Below are positions 4,137-43,571 of a stretch of DNA of 64,000 nt, in pieces (within the stretch, counting starts at the first letter, position 1; each line of letters begins with the position of its first letter). Origin of the DNA: an uncultured Flavobacteriaceae bacterium (GTDB lineage Bacteria > Bacteroidota > Bacteroidia > Flavobacteriales > Flavobacteriaceae); contig CANLWG010000013.1 of the NCBI GenBank assembly GCA_947494715.1, positions 124,001-188,000 of the forward strand, written 5' to 3'. The notes beneath the pieces are model-generated. The model was given only the letters and a program-made list of their open reading frames with translations, was not told the origin of the DNA and did not search any database. The translations under genes were made by a program, and so were the position numbers.

Positions 4137-4150
4137 CACTCGCAAACAAA

Positions 4151-4216
4151 GAGGAAAGATTTGACTGATTGCAACCTCCGGACCCCAAACTTCGTTTAGG
4201 GTAAAAATGCTAAAAC
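4151..4216 (+). ncRNA. Probable SAM-II riboswitch upstream of metK
   Basis: GAGG (4151-4154) and CCTC (4175-4178) form P1 around a loop containing GATTTGACTGATTGCAA, which closely follows the conserved SAM-II (metA-type) loop GATTTAACCGTATTGCAA. The conserved 3' strand GCTAAAA is at 4209-4215. Between them sits an inserted hairpin (4182-4202, arms ACCC/GGGT plus AAAC/GTTT). The canonical SAM-II has no such hairpin in its short form, so this would be an extended variant. The remaining leader (4217-4287) has no other recognised element. It is in the right place to let SAM repress SAM synthetase. The call is by eye, without a covariance model. Confidence 0.7.
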
Positions 4217-4287
4217 AGAAAATACCCAATTCTCGGTATTTATAGTTTGGTTACAATTACCTCTCCCTCTTACTTAAGACTATATAC

Positions 4288-5591: not shown

Positions 5592-5620
5592 TGTTTCAAA
5601 AGTTCAAACACGTATTGAAA

Positions 5621-5754
5621 AGTTATCAAGAAAGGTGGAGGGAATAGACCCTTTGAAGCCTTAGCAACCCTTTGTTCCCCAAATGCTATTCGTAACAAAG
5701 AAGGTGCTAAATTCTACCTGTGCTGAACCTGTTTCAGCATCTTGGCAGATAACT
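5621..5754 (+). ncRNA. SAM-I (S-box) riboswitch upstream of metY
   Basis: P1 is formed by AGTTATC (5621-5627) and GATAACT (5748-5754). The conserved S-box core reads AAGAAAGGTGGAGGGA, then GAAGCCTTAGCAACC, then AAGGTGCTAAATTC, with a P3 arm made of TTTGTT and AACAAAG. A weak AT-rich hairpin (AATTAC 5760-5765 / GTAATT 5770-5775) followed by a T-rich tract may be the expression platform. SAM binding should switch off the downstream metY and possibly the whole group of methionine genes. Confidence 0.95.
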
Positions 5755-5874
5755 CGAACAATTACTTCCGTAATTTTTCTTTCTTCTTAACTCTTTGATT
5801 GTATCCAATTGTAAAATCCGCAATGGATAGTCGTGTTGTAATTTGTCCAATTAATAATTAAATAAATCAGAATT

Positions 5875-20056: not shown

Positions 20057-20082
20057 TACCAGTTCATTAAAAAATTGAAATC

Positions 20083-20184
20083 GTTATCAAGAAAGGTGGA
20101 GGGACTAGACCCTATGAAACCTTAGCAACCCTTTCCCGTAAAGAAGGTGCTACATTCTATCACGACAATGGCGTGACAGATAAC
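20083..20184 (+). ncRNA. SAM-I (S-box) riboswitch upstream of split metH
   Basis: P1 pairs GTTATC (20083-20088) with GATAAC (20179-20184). The core AAGAAAGGTGGAGGGACTAGACCC, GAAACCTTAGCAACC and GAAGGTGCTACATTC is the S-box consensus. It is shorter than the metY copy because its P3 arm is reduced. A short GGAC/GTCC hairpin follows (about 20187-20203), then a T/C-rich tract. It should control the metH-abm-metH operon. Confidence 0.95.
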
Positions 20185-20267
20185 AAGGACTATAGCTTTG
20201 TCCAATATTCCCTTTTCTTGCTAACTTTTAATATGTGCGATTTTACATATCGTACTAAAGAGTTAAT

Positions 20268-35445: not shown

Positions 35446-35690
35446 TAGCAAATACCATAAAGACCTCCGCATTCTATGAAGATTATTGAAAAAACATTTC
35501 CTTAGGGTTCAAAATAAGGATTCTAGCCCTATCCTTACTGTTTGTATTATGTGCGTAATTCGTATTAAAACGGGATTTTGAAAAATAAATGAACAAGGAT
35601 TAGCGTTAATTCTTAGAAAATCAAAAAAAGAAGAGGCTTAAACCTGATTTTTAAATTTAATTAGTACATTAGCCGAAGTTTTATAGCATA

Positions 35691-35762
35691 ATGACAAAAC
35701 AATATTTCTGGAACGGTTTTTATTTTTACTTCTTTTTTAAGGGAAGAAAGGGACTGTTGTAG
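35691..35762 (+). CDS. Aromatic amino-acid leader peptide of the pheA operon attenuator
   Basis: A 23-codon reading frame starts at ATG 35691 and ends at TAG 35760-35762. Residues 5-16 are YFWNGFYFYFFF: six Phe, three Tyr and one Trp in twelve positions. It lies directly upstream of a perfect intrinsic terminator and of genes for phenylalanine and tyrosine synthesis. Ribosome stalling at these codons when Phe or Tyr is short would leave the following GGGACT (35750-35755) free to block the terminator. The peptide itself probably has no function. Confidence 0.85.
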   Translation: MTKQYFWNGFYFYFFFKGRKGLL

Positions 35763-35814
35763 TATATTGAAAACAAAATATAATATGAAGTCCCGTGAAA
35801 AACGGGACTTTTTT
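35750..35814 (+). promoter_or_regulatory. Transcription attenuator (antiterminator/terminator) of the pheA operon
   Basis: Terminator: AAGTCCCGT (35788-35796) pairs perfectly with ACGGGACTT (35802-35810) around GAAAA, followed by a T-run to 35814. Antiterminator: GGGACT (35750-35755), at the end of the leader peptide frame, is complementary to AGTCCC (35789-35794), the upstream arm of the terminator. The last Phe codon ends 11 bases before GGGACT, so a stalled ribosome would not cover it, while a ribosome at the stop codon would. Confidence 0.85.
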
Positions 35815-35881
35815 ATTTCCCATTTTTCATGAAAATGGGAAATGCCTGGAACAGGTCAAGGGAACTGTCAGATATAGTATA

Positions 35882-36709
35882 ATGGGTTTAAAGATAGCCA
35901 TACAGGGAATTAGGGGATCCAATCACCATCAAGTAGTGAGGGAATATTTTGATGATAAGGTGGATTTAGTGGAATGTCTGTCCTTTCATGGTTTGGTGGA
36001 CCACTTGCTGGACGGTTCTGCGGACAAGGGCGTAATGGCCATTGAAAACTCCATAGCCGGATCTATTATTCCCAACTACGCTTTGATAAATGACAATGGC
36101 TTGCATATCATTGGCGAGCATTATTTGAATATCCACCACAATCTAATGGCTTTGAAGGGGCAGCATATAGACGATATCATCGAGGTTCGTACCCACCCTA
36201 TGGCCTTATTACAGTGTAGGGAATTTTTGAAGACCCAACCCCATATTAAAATGGTGGAAGATGTGGATACTGCGGAAACCGCCAGGCGAATCCAAGAACA
36301 CTGTTTAAAGGGTATTGCGGCGATAGCGCCCCAGGTAGCTTCCGAACTGTACGGCCTTGAAATCATTGCCAAAGAGATACAGACCATAAAGAACAATGCC
36401 ACTAGATTTATTATTGTAAAAACCAAGAACAAGGAACTCCCTAAGGACGAAATCAACAAGGCGTCCCTGCGGTTTGAAACCGATCATAAACGAGGCAGTT
36501 TGGCGGCGGTACTCAATGTAATGAGCGATTGTAATCTGAATTTGACCAAAATTCAGTCCCTGCCCATTATAGAGACCCCTTGGAAATATGCTTTTTTTGT
36601 GGACGTTACTTTTGAACAATATGATAATTTTGCCAAGGCCAAAGCACTTTTGGAGATTATGTCCGAAAATTTTAAGGTCTTGGGAGAATATAAAAATGGC
36701 CGGTTATGA
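35882..36709 (+). CDS. pheA: Prephenate dehydratase
   Basis: Converts prephenate to phenylpyruvate. The catalytic domain holds GVMAIENSIAGSI and NNATRFIIV (the conserved Thr-Arg-Phe), followed by a C-terminal ACT domain (GSLAAVLNVMSDCNLNLTKIQSLPI) that should bind Phe. ATG 35882 is chosen; the frame runs further upstream, but that part lies inside the attenuator. 275 residues, no chorismate mutase domain. The stop overlaps the aminotransferase start (ATGA). Confidence 0.95.
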   Translation: MGLKIAIQGIRGSNHHQVVREYFDDKVDLVECLSFHGLVDHLLDGSADKGVMAIENSIAGSIIPNYALINDNGLHIIGEHYLNIHHNLMALKGQHIDDIIEVRTHPMALLQCREFLKTQPHIKMVEDVDTAETARRIQEHCLKGIAAIAPQVASELYGLEIIAKEIQTIKNNATRFIIVKTKNKELPKDEINKASLRFETDHKRGSLAAVLNVMSDCNLNLTKIQSLPIIETPWKYAFFVDVTFEQYDNFAKAKALLEIMSENFKVLGEYKNGRL

Positions 36710-37851
36710 TACAAACGGCAGATAGATTAAAAACAGTTGAGGAATATTACTTCTCCAAAAAGTTGAGGGAGGTACGCCAACTTATGACACAGGGCAGACC
36801 CATTATCAATATGGGTATTGGAAGTCCGGATTTAGATCCCTCGCCGGAGGTTGTGAATACCTTGCAGAATGTGTTAGGGGAATCTGGTGCGCATCAATAT
36901 CAAAGCTATCAAGGTTTACCTGAACTAAGGCATGCCATGGCCGATTTTTACCAATCCAAATTTGGAGTTGCCCTAGACGGGCTAAATGAGATTTTGCCTC
37001 TAATGGGCTCCAAAGAAGGCATAATGCACATAAGTTTGGCTTTTTTGAACGCCGGGGATAATGTACTGATTCCTGATCCCGGGTATCCCACCTATACTTC
37101 GGTCACTAAACTGGTAGGCGCCATTCCCATAAAGTATGACCTGACAGAAGCTAACGAATGGTTGCCCGACTTAAAGGCTTTGGCAAGTCAGGACCTCTCC
37201 AAGGTAAAGTTAATGTGGATCAGTTATCCGAACATGCCTACGGGAGCTACTATAACACATCAAAAAATGCAAGAATTGGTGACGTTTGCCAAGGAAAATC
37301 AGATTCTATTGGTCAATGACAATCCATATAGTTTTGTATTGAACGAACATCCCACTAGCATTTTGCAAATAGAAGGCGCCAAAGAGGTTGCCCTGGAACT
37401 CAATTCGTTGAGCAAGACCTTTAATATGGCAGGTTGGCGCGTGGGCATGGTAATGGGTAACGAAAGACATATAAATGCGGTGTTGAAGATAAAAAGCAAT
37501 ATGGATTCGGGAATGTTCTATGGGATACAACAAGGGGCGGTAACTGCATTGCAAAGTGGAGGGGAATGGTTTAAAAAACTGGATGCCAAATATGCGTCCA
37601 GACGTCAATTGATGTTCGCCTTAGTGGATAAGTTAAACTGTACCTATAATAAGAATTCAGCGGGGATGTTTGTATGGGCCAAATTACCGGAAGGGAGCAA
37701 ATCTTCAGAAGAATTTATTGATGAGGTGCTTTACGATAAAGATGTTTTTATAGCACCCGGCACTATTTTTGGGAGCAATGGTGAGGGTTATATCAGGTTT
37801 TCACTTTGTGTAAAAGAGGATAAGATCAAGGAAGCAATAGATCGATTTTAG
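36706..37851 (+). CDS. Class I/II aminotransferase, probably aromatic
   Basis: 381-residue fold-type I PLP enzyme. Substrate and cofactor residues are visible in NMGIGSPDLDPSPEV, YQSYQGLPELRHAMADFY, PNMPTG, NDNPYSFVL and the PLP-lysine motif NSLSKTFNMAGWRVGM. Placed between pheA and tyrA, it should transaminate phenylpyruvate and 4-hydroxyphenylpyruvate, or prephenate; sequence alone does not decide. Overlaps pheA by four bases. Confidence 0.88.
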   Translation: MIQTADRLKTVEEYYFSKKLREVRQLMTQGRPIINMGIGSPDLDPSPEVVNTLQNVLGESGAHQYQSYQGLPELRHAMADFYQSKFGVALDGLNEILPLMGSKEGIMHISLAFLNAGDNVLIPDPGYPTYTSVTKLVGAIPIKYDLTEANEWLPDLKALASQDLSKVKLMWISYPNMPTGATITHQKMQELVTFAKENQILLVNDNPYSFVLNEHPTSILQIEGAKEVALELNSLSKTFNMAGWRVGMVMGNERHINAVLKIKSNMDSGMFYGIQQGAVTALQSGGEWFKKLDAKYASRRQLMFALVDKLNCTYNKNSAGMFVWAKLPEGSKSSEEFIDEVLYDKDVFIAPGTIFGSNGEGYIRFSLCVKEDKIKEAIDRF

Positions 37852-37907: not shown

Positions 37908-38768
37908 ATGAACATATTCGTCATAGGTATAGGTTTAATTGGAGGCTCCTTTGCAAAGGATATAAAAAGTTTACGTCCCGACTCGAAAATATTCGGATTG
38001 GATACCAATATGTCTCATCTGGATGAAGCGCTATCCTTGGATATAATTGATGTAAAATCCGGCTATCAGGATTTACACCTTGCAGATATGGTCATTGTGA
38101 GTATTCCGGTAGATGTTTTGGTGACGGAACTACCCAAAATTTTGGATGCCGTTAACGATGATTGTGTAGTCCTTGATGGTGGATCTACCAAAACTTTGGT
38201 TTGCAAAACTTTGGAGAATCATCCCAAACGCAGGAATTTTTTGGCTTGTCATCCCATTGCAGGAACAGAGTTTTCCGGCCCGTCAGCTGCGATGGAAGGT
38301 CTATATAATGGTAAGACCAACATTATCTGTGAAGTGGAAAAGACCGCTTTTAAACTACAGGAGCGAGCTTTGGGACTGTTTCAGGAAATGGGCATGCGAA
38401 TTCGCTATATGAATCCGCTTGCGCATGATAGACATATCGCCTATGTATCACATTTATCGCACATTAGCTCATTTATGCTGGGGAAGACGGTTATAGAAAA
38501 GGAGAAAAACGAAAGGGATATTTTTGATATGGCCGGCAGTGGATTTGAAAGTACGGTTCGTTTGGCCAAAAGCTCCCCGGCCATGTGGACGCCCATTTTT
38601 GAACAGAACAAGGAAAATGTAGTTGAGATACTGGAGGACTATATCCAAAACTTGGAAGCGTTCAAAAGGCTCCTTTTGGAGAATGACTATGAGGGCATTT
38701 ATACTGAAATGGACAACACCAATAAAATAAAGGAAATCTTAAAAGGAATACCACTTAACAAACAATAA
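37908..38768 (+). CDS. tyrA: Prephenate dehydrogenase
   Basis: Makes 4-hydroxyphenylpyruvate for tyrosine. The NAD-binding motif is IGIGLIGGSFAKD, the substrate region is HPIAGTEFSGPSAA, and the helical C-terminal domain has DRHIAYVSHLSHISSFML. 286 residues without a fused chorismate mutase; that activity is in the next gene, one base downstream. Controlled by the attenuator upstream of pheA. Confidence 0.93.
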   Translation: MNIFVIGIGLIGGSFAKDIKSLRPDSKIFGLDTNMSHLDEALSLDIIDVKSGYQDLHLADMVIVSIPVDVLVTELPKILDAVNDDCVVLDGGSTKTLVCKTLENHPKRRNFLACHPIAGTEFSGPSAAMEGLYNGKTNIICEVEKTAFKLQERALGLFQEMGMRIRYMNPLAHDRHIAYVSHLSHISSFMLGKTVIEKEKNERDIFDMAGSGFESTVRLAKSSPAMWTPIFEQNKENVVEILEDYIQNLEAFKRLLLENDYEGIYTEMDNTNKIKEILKGIPLNKQ

Positions 38769-38769
38769 A

Positions 38770-39852
38770 ATGGAGAATACAAAGGAATTGAGAAAATGGT
38801 TGGACGATATGGAACTGCCACATCCATTGGTGATAGCCGGACCCTGTAGCGCGGAAACCGAGGAGCAAGTATTAAGAATTGCCCATGATTTAAAGGATAC
38901 GGATGTAAACTATTATCGCGCTGGTATATGGAAACCACGTACCCGTCCGGGAAATTTTGAGGGTGTGGGTGCATTGGGCCTAAAATGGTTGCAGAAGGTG
39001 AAGGAGGAGACCGGGTTAAAGACAGCTACGGAAGTTGCCAATAGGAACCATGTAGAGCTGGCCTTGGAACATGACATTGATTTGTTGTGGATCGGTGCTC
39101 GATCAACGGTAAGCCCATTTATTGTACAGGACATTGCCGATGCACTAGAGGGAACGAACAAAATTGTTTTGATAAAGAATCCGGTAAACCCCGATCTTTC
39201 CTTGTGGTTAGGTGCTGTGGAACGTTTGTATACGGCCAACATCAAAAAGTTGGGGGTTATTCACCGTGGTTTTTCGACCTACGAAAAATCCAAATATCGA
39301 AATATTCCGGAATGGCAGTTGGCCATTGAGCTACAGACCAAATTTCCGGACTTGCCCATTATAAACGATCCATCCCATATTACCGGAAAAAGAGATATGA
39401 TCTTTGATGTATCCCAGACGGCCTTGGATCTGAATTTTGATGGATTAATGATCGAGACGCACTATGACCCCGACAACGCATGGAGCGATGCAGCGCAGCA
39501 AGTAACACCCAAAAGATTGGTACAAATTATGGAAGATCTAAAAATTAGAAAGGAGACCGATAAGGAGGCAGAATACAATAGCAAATTGAATAACCTAAGG
39601 GCCCAAATAGACATTATCGATAATCAACTGATCGATATGCTAGGAAAACGCATGAAGGTTTCTGATGGTATAGGGGAGCTCAAAAAGCAACGTAATGTGG
39701 CGGTGCTTCAGACCAACCGATGGAACGCCATTTTGGGAAAAATGATCTTGGAGGGCGAGTCCAAAGGATTGAGTGAGGAGTTTGTATTAAAAATGTTCAA
39801 GGCCATCCATCAGGAATCCATTAACCATCAGGAAAAAATCATCAACGCCTAA
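38770..39852 (+). CDS. Bifunctional DAHP synthase / chorismate mutase
   Basis: First and branch-point enzymes of aromatic synthesis in one 360-residue protein. Residues 1-260 are type I-beta DAHP synthase (AGPCSAETEEQVLRIA, YRAGIWKPRTRPGNFEGVG, IHRGFSTYEKSKYRN, NDPSHITGKRD). Residues about 270-360 are an AroQ-type chorismate mutase (LRAQIDIIDNQLIDMLGKRM, then the C-terminal helices). The fused mutase probably makes the synthase sensitive to prephenate or chorismate. Last gene of the pheA operon. Confidence 0.94.
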   Translation: MENTKELRKWLDDMELPHPLVIAGPCSAETEEQVLRIAHDLKDTDVNYYRAGIWKPRTRPGNFEGVGALGLKWLQKVKEETGLKTATEVANRNHVELALEHDIDLLWIGARSTVSPFIVQDIADALEGTNKIVLIKNPVNPDLSLWLGAVERLYTANIKKLGVIHRGFSTYEKSKYRNIPEWQLAIELQTKFPDLPIINDPSHITGKRDMIFDVSQTALDLNFDGLMIETHYDPDNAWSDAAQQVTPKRLVQIMEDLKIRKETDKEAEYNSKLNNLRAQIDIIDNQLIDMLGKRMKVSDGIGELKKQRNVAVLQTNRWNAILGKMILEGESKGLSEEFVLKMFKAIHQESINHQEKIINA

Positions 39853-42341: not shown

Positions 42342-43571
42342 TTGAAACTACACCTGTCGCCTCCATTGACCAAACTACTAAATTCCAATATCCGGATTAC
42401 GGGCTCAAAAAGCGAGTCCAATCGTTTGTTATTACTACAAGCATTGTATCCCAATATTGAGATTGATAACCTTTCCAATTCCGATGATGCCGAAGTCATG
42501 CAAAAAGGACTGGGCACAAGTAGGGGAGTTGTGGATATCCATCATGCCGGTACCGCCATGCGATTTCTTACAAGCTACTTTGCCTCACAGGAAGGCAAGG
42601 AAGTTCTTCTTACAGGTTCGCAACGTATGACCGAGCGTCCCATAAAAATCTTAGTGGATGCACTTTGCGATTTAGGTGCCGAAATTGAATATGAAAAGAA
42701 CAATGGATACCCCCCCATAAAAATTAAAGGGAAGAAACTAACCAGAAATAAAGTAAGTCTTCCTGCCAATATCAGCAGCCAATATATTTCCTCATTGCTA
42801 CTGATTGCACCGGGTCTGGGAAATGGTCTGGACTTGGACTTGAAAGGGAAAATTACATCTGTTCCGTATATAAAAATGACTTTGGCCCTATTGGAACAAA
42901 TTGGCGTACGGACAAGTTTTGAAGGGAACACGATTAAGGTATATCCCAAAAAATCCGTGGATTCAAAAACTCTGGTGGTAGAATCTGATTGGAGCTCTGC
43001 TTCCTATTTTTATAGTATAGTTGCCCTTAGTGAAGTTGGTTCTGAAGTTATCTTATCATCCTATAAAAAGAATAGCCTGCAGGGTGATAGCGTGCTTGCA
43101 GAGATTTACAAAAATTGGGGGGTGAACACCAATTTCAGGGAAAATGAAATCAGCCTAAGAAAAACGGCCGACCTGAAGCCCGAAAGTTTGAACTTGGACC
43201 TTTCAAATACCCCGGACACCGCCCAGACTATTGCTGTTACTTGTTTTGGACTGGGAGTCGGGTGCCATCTTACAGGATTACATACCCTAAAAATAAAGGA
43301 AACGGATAGACTGGAAGCCCTGCATACAGAGCTCTCCAAATTGGGTGCCGATATAACCGTATCGGATAAGGACTTGGTATTACGTCCGTCAGATCGAATA
43401 AACAAAGACGTGACCATCGATACCTATAATGACCATAGAATGGCTATGGCCTTTGCTCCCTTGGCCATGAAAACTTCAATGTATATGAACGATGCCGAAG
43501 TGGTCTCAAAGTCCTATCCCGACTTTTGGAAAGACCTTGAAATACTCGGTTTTAGGGTGCAGAGACTATAA
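42342..43571 (+). CDS. aroA: 3-Phosphoshikimate 1-carboxyvinyltransferase (EPSP synthase)
   Basis: Sixth shikimate step. Substrate residues are in ITGSKSESNRLLLLQAL, LTGSQRMTERPI, SSQYISSLL and IKETDRLEALHTEL; DTYNDHRMAMAFAPLA is near the end. 409 residues, a little shorter than E. coli AroA. The start is TTG 42342, preceded by a -7 box; no in-frame ATG is nearby. It is separate from the attenuated pheA operon. Confidence 0.93.
   Translation: MKLHLSPPLTKLLNSNIRITGSKSESNRLLLLQALYPNIEIDNLSNSDDAEVMQKGLGTSRGVVDIHHAGTAMRFLTSYFASQEGKEVLLTGSQRMTERPIKILVDALCDLGAEIEYEKNNGYPPIKIKGKKLTRNKVSLPANISSQYISSLLLIAPGLGNGLDLDLKGKITSVPYIKMTLALLEQIGVRTSFEGNTIKVYPKKSVDSKTLVVESDWSSASYFYSIVALSEVGSEVILSSYKKNSLQGDSVLAEIYKNWGVNTNFRENEISLRKTADLKPESLNLDLSNTPDTAQTIAVTCFGLGVGCHLTGLHTLKIKETDRLEALHTELSKLGADITVSDKDLVLRPSDRINKDVTIDTYNDHRMAMAFAPLAMKTSMYMNDAEVVSKSYPDFWKDLEILGFRVQRL

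Follow-up and report, generated by a model that had tools for sequence, protein, structure and literature searches.

A predicted dual Phe/Tyr attenuator in front of pheA with an unexpectedly wide distribution in the class Bacteroidia

How a member of the Flavobacteriaceae could adjust the synthesis of phenylalanine and tyrosine to their supply is the question raised by a short stretch of DNA in front of pheA in an uncultured bacterium of this family. The window analyzed here, i.e., the whole stretch of 64,000 nucleotides from contig CANLWG010000013.1 (assembly GCA_947494715.1), is part of a roughly 5.97-Mb genome, and its closest named relatives among the matches listed are Ulvibacterium (Flavobacteriaceae), with PheA proteins 91-92% identical. 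On the plus strand, pheA, encoding prephenate dehydratase (35882-36709; Pfam PF00800, 6.2e-56), is followed by a class I/II aminotransferase gene (36706-37851; PF00155), by tyrA, encoding prephenate dehydrogenase (37908-38768; PF02153 and PF20463), and by a gene for DAHP synthase fused to chorismate mutase (38770-39852; PF00793 and PF01817). A mechanical open reading frame (ORF) from GTG 35795, inside the terminator described below, was rejected as an over-extension of pheA, which starts at ATG 35882. The aminotransferase gene lies behind pheA in all 81 loci of the window and its near relatives, and the start of tyrA lies behind the aminotransferase gene in 76 of these 81, the DNA of which ends soon after. 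Operon content appears to vary among relatives, since four loci (L089, L104, L105 and L111) show a DAHP synthase match directly behind pheA and no aminotransferase or tyrA match in between. Close downstream in the window and in the same orientation, the EPSP synthase gene aroA (42342-43571) lies outside the putatively attenuated operon, with one opposite-strand gene and several others between the two.

The original prediction placed a complete Phe/Tyr transcription attenuator directly upstream of this operon. It described a 23-codon leader with ten aromatic residues in codons 5-16, and direct reading agrees: on the plus strand, the leader peptide ORF MTKQYFWNGFYFYFFFKGRKGLL (35691-35762) runs from ATG 35691 to TAG 35760-35762, its ten aromatics (six Phe, three Tyr and one Trp) occupying codons 5, 6, 7 and 10-16. 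Codons 5-16, taken as the regulatory ones (35703-35738, plus strand), read Y F W N G F Y F Y F F F. Likewise, the perfect 9-bp terminator stem proposed at 35788-35810 is present both in the sequence and in a terminator scan, which reports 35787-35811 plus a T-run with 10 pairs, one of them G-T; the intrinsic terminator (35788-35814, plus strand) thus consists of the stem 35788-35796/35802-35810, a 5-base loop and the T-run, and has a counterpart in 81/81 loci (the window and 80 named relatives). The competing 6-bp pairing was also correctly read. Region 2 (GGGACT, 35750-35755), the 5' strand of the antiterminator, lies inside the leader frame just before the stop codon, 11 bases beyond the last Phe codon (35736-35738), and matches region 3 (AGTCCC, 35789-35794), which is common to the antiterminator (2:3) and the terminator (3:4), region 4 (GGGACT, 35804-35809) being the 3' strand of the latter. 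This geometry, together with the mechanism modeled on it, holds in 224 related leaders. Region 1 (AACGGTTT, 35712-35719) is predicted to pair with 35751-35758 in the free RNA, forming a 1:2 hairpin that would sequester region 2; regions 1 to 4 are all on the plus strand. The 130-nt leader folds at -35.6 kcal/mol, against a shuffle mean of -21.0 kcal/mol (z -4.57), with 0/200 shuffles as good. Directly after the terminator, at 35815-35843, there is a near-perfect palindrome (core TTTCCCATTTTTCATGAAAATGGGAAA) that is missing in L003 and degenerate in L004. Its interpretation as a genomic repeat was rejected, as a second full copy was not found in the genome; it would fold strongly in the read-through mRNA and perhaps plays a role in processing or stability.

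With a leader ORF rich in codons for the end products, a terminator before the first gene and a covarying antiterminator that shares a terminator strand, the locus very probably holds a ribosome-mediated transcription attenuator. It would respond to the charging of both tRNA-Phe and tRNA-Tyr and regulate the operon of pheA, the aminotransferase gene, tyrA and the DAHP synthase/chorismate mutase gene. Coupling, stalling, termination and the amino-acid response are what we infer from the sequence elements, their conservation, their covariation and their predicted folding, and events would run as follows. RNA polymerase would transcribe the leader with a ribosome following it. When Phe or Tyr is scarce, this ribosome would stall within codons 5-16, covering region 1 and leaving region 2 free; 2:3 would then form before region 4 is made, and transcription would continue. 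When both Phe and Tyr are plentiful, the ribosome would arrive at the stop codon and cover region 2, and 3:4 would terminate transcription near 35814. If there is no ribosome, the 1:2 hairpin would favor termination in the window's genome.

An alignment of relatives agrees with the original prediction in that the aromatic codons are conserved and both 2:3 and 3:4 covary. It comprises 77 of the 81 near loci, the four left out being L032 (identical to another row), L004, L058 and L073. Phe occupies codon columns 12 and 14 in 77/77 of these leaders, with both Phe codons used at codon 12, and column 15 in 75/77, the remaining two being gapped there. Column 7 is restricted to Trp, Tyr or Phe (42, 20 and 15 leaders, respectively), and more generally the aromatic codons swap among themselves and vary synonymously. 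We read this pattern as selection on the class of codon that the ribosome decodes. The peptide tail (GLL, GLF) is largely kept in the near leaders where it encodes region 2; in other lineages the tails are quite different (NEALYV, ERVAVCC, SKSRD), and region 2 is different too.

Over all 237 leaders identified (see below), Phe and Tyr both occur in the core of every one (totals of 1041 Phe, 686 Tyr and 130 Trp), and 230 hold at least two of each. The designation as a Phe/Tyr attenuator stands as to these two amino acids, with the qualification that a Trp codon is also present, as in 129/237 leaders. That Trp, together with the length and hydrophobicity of the aromatic run, would also suit a ribosome-arrest peptide, in which the leader would sense translation slowing down in general, or an aromatic nascent peptide that stalls, instead of the charging of tRNA-Phe and tRNA-Tyr. 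Such a peptide is nevertheless highly unlikely here: the sequence outside the aromatic run differs widely between families, F, Y and W interchange at fixed positions, a pattern that suits codons standing for related pathway products but does not suit an arrest motif, and the product of the operon matches the leader codons.

The pairings were followed through the 224 loci with both leader and terminator, which display 131 distinct combinations of regions 2, 3 and 4, both rival partners following the shared strand. Examples are CAGGACT/AGTCCTG/CAGGACT in L022, CGAGAC/GTCTCG/CGAGAC in L135, CCGGGTT/AACCCGG/CCGGGTT in L218 and AGAGCGGTC/GACCGCTTT/AAAGCGGTT in L236. In the 77-row alignment, cells changed on both sides number 10 for 2:3, against 2.9 in shuffles, and 45 for 3:4, against 8.5, in comparisons where kinship of the loci inflates the shuffle controls. 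Both pairings beat shuffled and slid controls on most measures; a slide of +1 gives 2:3 12 cells changed on both sides instead of 10, though only 44% of the slid cells pair. When 2:3 had to contain 5 or more bases in exact Watson-Crick pairing, 14/81 loci were missed, all of which pair once G-U is allowed (e.g., CGGGACT/AGTTCCG in L066 and L083). This evidence bears on the possibility that the element is a constitutive upstream terminator accompanied by a small protein gene, with no switch at all. A plain terminator would not need antiterminator and terminator strands that covary with a shared strand, and the probability of this reading is virtually negligible. The 1:2 pairing, with 93.5% of cells paired in the 77 aligned leaders, shows no covariation beyond shuffles there. 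A 1:2 pause hairpin is not supported as a general feature, given this lack of covariation and the 144/224 ribosome-free RNAs that are predicted to form 2:3.

Region 2 was picked in the 224-locus comparison as the best match, so that its length alone proves little, and shuffle, swap and free-placement tests were used to address this bias. When region 2 of a locus was paired with region 3 of 60 others, the mean stability of these duplexes fell short of that of the cognate 2:3 duplex in 208/224 cases, and in 92.9% of the 224 no more than 5% of 60 region 2 shuffles match the cognate duplex. In the duplex tests and in the folding described below, region 2 could lie only within limits set in advance; the free-placement test lifts this restriction, and the sequence that best complements the 5' arm of the terminator then falls between the last aromatic codon and 12 bases past the stop codon in 218/224 loci (19% expected by length). 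This position just past the aromatic run, along with leader codons that are kept as amino acids with synonymous variation, argues against a riboswitch or protein-binding leader in which the ORF is incidental, even if a terminator and a competing pairing alone would fit any type of attenuator. A riboswitch or other described RNA was rejected also on the basis of Rfam, no family of which reaches its cut-off within 35600-35900. The only matches at cut-off are three SAM-type riboswitches elsewhere in the window, two SAM (S box) and one SAM-II, on the plus strand at 5620-5755, 20081-20186 and 4145-4223. A riboswitch or protein-binding leader is exceedingly unlikely at this locus.

Whether the spacing of the elements would suit ribosome-mediated attenuation was modeled by folding, at equilibrium, a partial transcript ending with region 3, in which the bases under the ribosome (footprint -17 to +13) were kept unpaired. 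In the window leader, the probability of the antiterminator, P(2:3), is at least 0.995 with the ribosome at the aromatic codons, 0.0 with the ribosome at the stop codon and 0.25 in the naked RNA. Similarly, P(2:3) exceeds 0.5 with the ribosome at the first, middle or last aromatic codon in 218, 219 and 213 of the 224 loci, respectively, whereas it does so in 11/224 with the ribosome at the stop codon. Other footprints keep this contrast with some losses: with a larger footprint (+16), the loci in which a stall at the last aromatic codon leaves 2:3 free drop to 174/224, and the ribosome at the stop codon fails to block 2:3 in 11 to 23 of the 224, depending on the footprint. Escherichia coli pheL, run as a positive control through a like script with a T-tail rule one T looser, gives P(2:3) of 1.0, 1.0 and 0.71 at the first, middle and last aromatic codon, 0.0 at the stop codon and 0.0 naked. 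In these models, then, the spacing would let a stalled ribosome free region 2 and a terminating ribosome cover it.

How far does this arrangement extend? In the 275 pheA loci remaining after the removal of three duplicates (L005, L006 and L118), a leader was called where 10 codons held 6 or more aromatics; in the control comparison, the search covered 600 bases upstream. The class of the sampled genomes is presumably Bacteroidia, from the GTDB placing of Flavobacteriaceae. The family draw yielded 129 other genomes with PheA, of which 114 were examined, leaving out 12 near ones (at least 76% identity) and G283, G296 and G315. In the order draw, 22 of 53 matches in other families were examined (one f82 symbiont only), with nine same-family matches left out, and in the class draw 54 of 56 matches outside the order (all except G027 and G130). 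A search of the class sample with the prephenate dehydratase family profile found 64/247 genomes, the same number as the protein search. A leader precedes 237/275 loci, with a terminator behind 224 of them: 81/81 in the window and its near relatives (81 with terminator), 115/118 in its own family (113), 8/22 in other families of the order (6) and 33/54 in other orders of the class (24). Among the near relatives, taken as the best 80 of 530 matches, all 80 named ones carry a leader with 7 or 8 aromatics per 10 codons.

Controls cover 271 loci, four being omitted for short or N-holding upstream DNA. The leader alone occurs in 235/271 real regions as opposed to 10/271 reverse complements, 34/1355 dinucleotide shuffles, 6/112 antisense-pheA stretches and 3/108 stretches further upstream; for leader plus terminator the corresponding figures are 222/271 as opposed to 0/271, 0/1355, 2/112 and 1/108. 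Of the 30 families sampled in the class, 18 have the leader (the window's own and 17 of 29 others) and 17 have it with a terminator (the window's own and 16 others). By the rules used, 13/237 leaders have no terminator, including both leaders of family f50, and 38/275 loci have no leader, including three of the window's own family (L153, L191 and L216). Families f4 and f17 hold only borderline leaders of 5 aromatics (e.g., MKLTQTYFWFYPASKREG in f17). In the class and order samples, no leader was found in families f2 and f13 (0/8 loci each), which probably reflects loss or replacement of the switch; the PheA proteins of f2 are distant (31-36% identity). Outside the class, none of the 28 best-scoring loci from 95 matching genomes in other classes of the phylum has a leader near the gene; one of these loci, L319, has a frame with 6 aromatics 1405 bases upstream.

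The start signals of the leader point to translation from close to the 5' end of the transcript. The -7 promoter consensus of Bacteroidota is TAnnTTTG (PMC9723704; PMC7366714), and a probable -7 element of the window, TACATTAG (35665-35672, plus strand), matches it at 5/6 positions and ends 19 bases ahead of the leader ATG, spanning -26 to -19. In the interval from -50 to -8, an exact TAnnTTTG occurs in 45/237 leaders (10.6 expected from shuffles) and a match of at least 5/6 in 221/237 (127 expected), the latter with a peak at -26 to -24 (118 of the 221). Because the box lies 19-26 bases before the ATG and peaks there in relatives, the 5'-UTR of the leader would be only about a dozen bases long, and translation would begin almost at the 5' end. 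Base composition upstream of the 237 leaders reveals no Shine-Dalgarno sequence that stands out, in agreement with the absence of such sequences in Bacteroidota given in the available part of PMC9723704; A is enriched at -3 (75%) and -6 (57%).

The same genome holds further leaders of this type. A His leader, MRNNTTHHHFYTCSQAR (L338), precedes the HisG domain match by about 319 bases; a Trp leader, MKNTKVNTWWWNNLRQEA (L339, minus strand), precedes that of trpE by about 254 bases; and a Val/Leu leader, MDKNPNTNNVVLVVRLGG (L341), precedes that of one ilvD by about 435 bases. Each has a terminator 25-31 bases past its stop codon, and these are probable sibling attenuators. The trpE leader matches Bacteroid-trp below threshold (40.1 bits, cut-off 49), and the hisG and ilvD leaders have no Rfam match at E 0.1. 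No convincing leader was seen at two homoserine dehydrogenase genes and a second ilvD of this genome.

The attenuator in front of pheA would be one of dual specificity, in which a single switch answers to the two end products of a branched pathway, and its distribution is unexpectedly wide. It seems reasonably likely that an early ancestor of Bacteroidia already had it and that it was kept with both codon types across the 18 of 30 sampled families. If so, ribosome-mediated attenuators would not be mainly a gamma-proteobacterial invention, contrary to what the available text of a survey of four Rfam attenuator families suggests, a survey in which Bacteroidaceae alone represent Bacteroidia (PMC3766115). 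Along with the leaders of his, trp and ilv, this would imply that, in bacteria whose translation starts without Shine-Dalgarno sequences, amino-acid control depends on transcription and translation being tightly coupled. Attenuation needs a ribosome close behind RNA polymerase, and the element could therefore serve as a natural reporter of such coupling in Bacteroidota. It offers a case of leader-peptide attenuation that spans the class, can be tested and lies beyond the well-studied groups, and it amounts to an RNA family missed by Rfam 15 at its cut-offs.

The proposal is partly anticipated in print. A 2021 transcriptome of Flavobacterium psychrophilum reports structured 5' elements upstream of pheA, hisG and other genes, present in other Flavobacteriaceae genera and without Rfam matches, along with strong clues to attenuation by leader peptides in front of amino-acid operons (PMC9723704). 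Its pheA element belongs to the same gene and family as the one in the window; in the available part of that paper it is described without peptide, codons, antiterminator or covariation, and conservation is stated for the family only. The original prediction gave such attenuation as not known to be described for the pheA operon of Bacteroidota, to which the conserved structured 5' element is an exception; the present analysis adds the dual Phe/Tyr leader, its range and its covariation. Among the papers listed by literature searches, with most subscription journals and a 2004 proteobacterial survey outside their scope, none besides the F. psychrophilum one deals with a Phe/Tyr leader in Bacteroidota. 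That 2004 survey reportedly treated attenuation in proteobacteria.

Among described RNAs, PMC2864571 lists, in the part available, Bacteroid-trp (RF01692), a Leu/phe leader of Lactococcus and an actinobacterial pheA motif. Bacteroid-trp is, like the window element, a Bacteroidota leader of the amino-acid type, but it has Trp codons and belongs to the trp operon. In a low-threshold Rfam scan, Phe_leader and Trp_leader rank first and the other 17 rows look like chance; Phe_leader (RF01859) matches 35703-35817, i.e., the whole element at full model length, at 28.2 bits (E 0.0071) against a cut-off of 55, so that by the Rfam rule the element is not a member. A close parallel in architecture is pheL-pheA of E. 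coli, which shares with the window an aromatic leader peptide, a region 2 by the leader end, a shared strand, a terminator and the same behavior in constrained folding. The two differ in that pheL has Phe but no Tyr codon, whereas the window leader has both, and in that pheL precedes pheA, with tyrA and aroF convergent on the other strand, whereas the window leader precedes pheA, the aminotransferase gene, tyrA and the DAHP synthase gene together.
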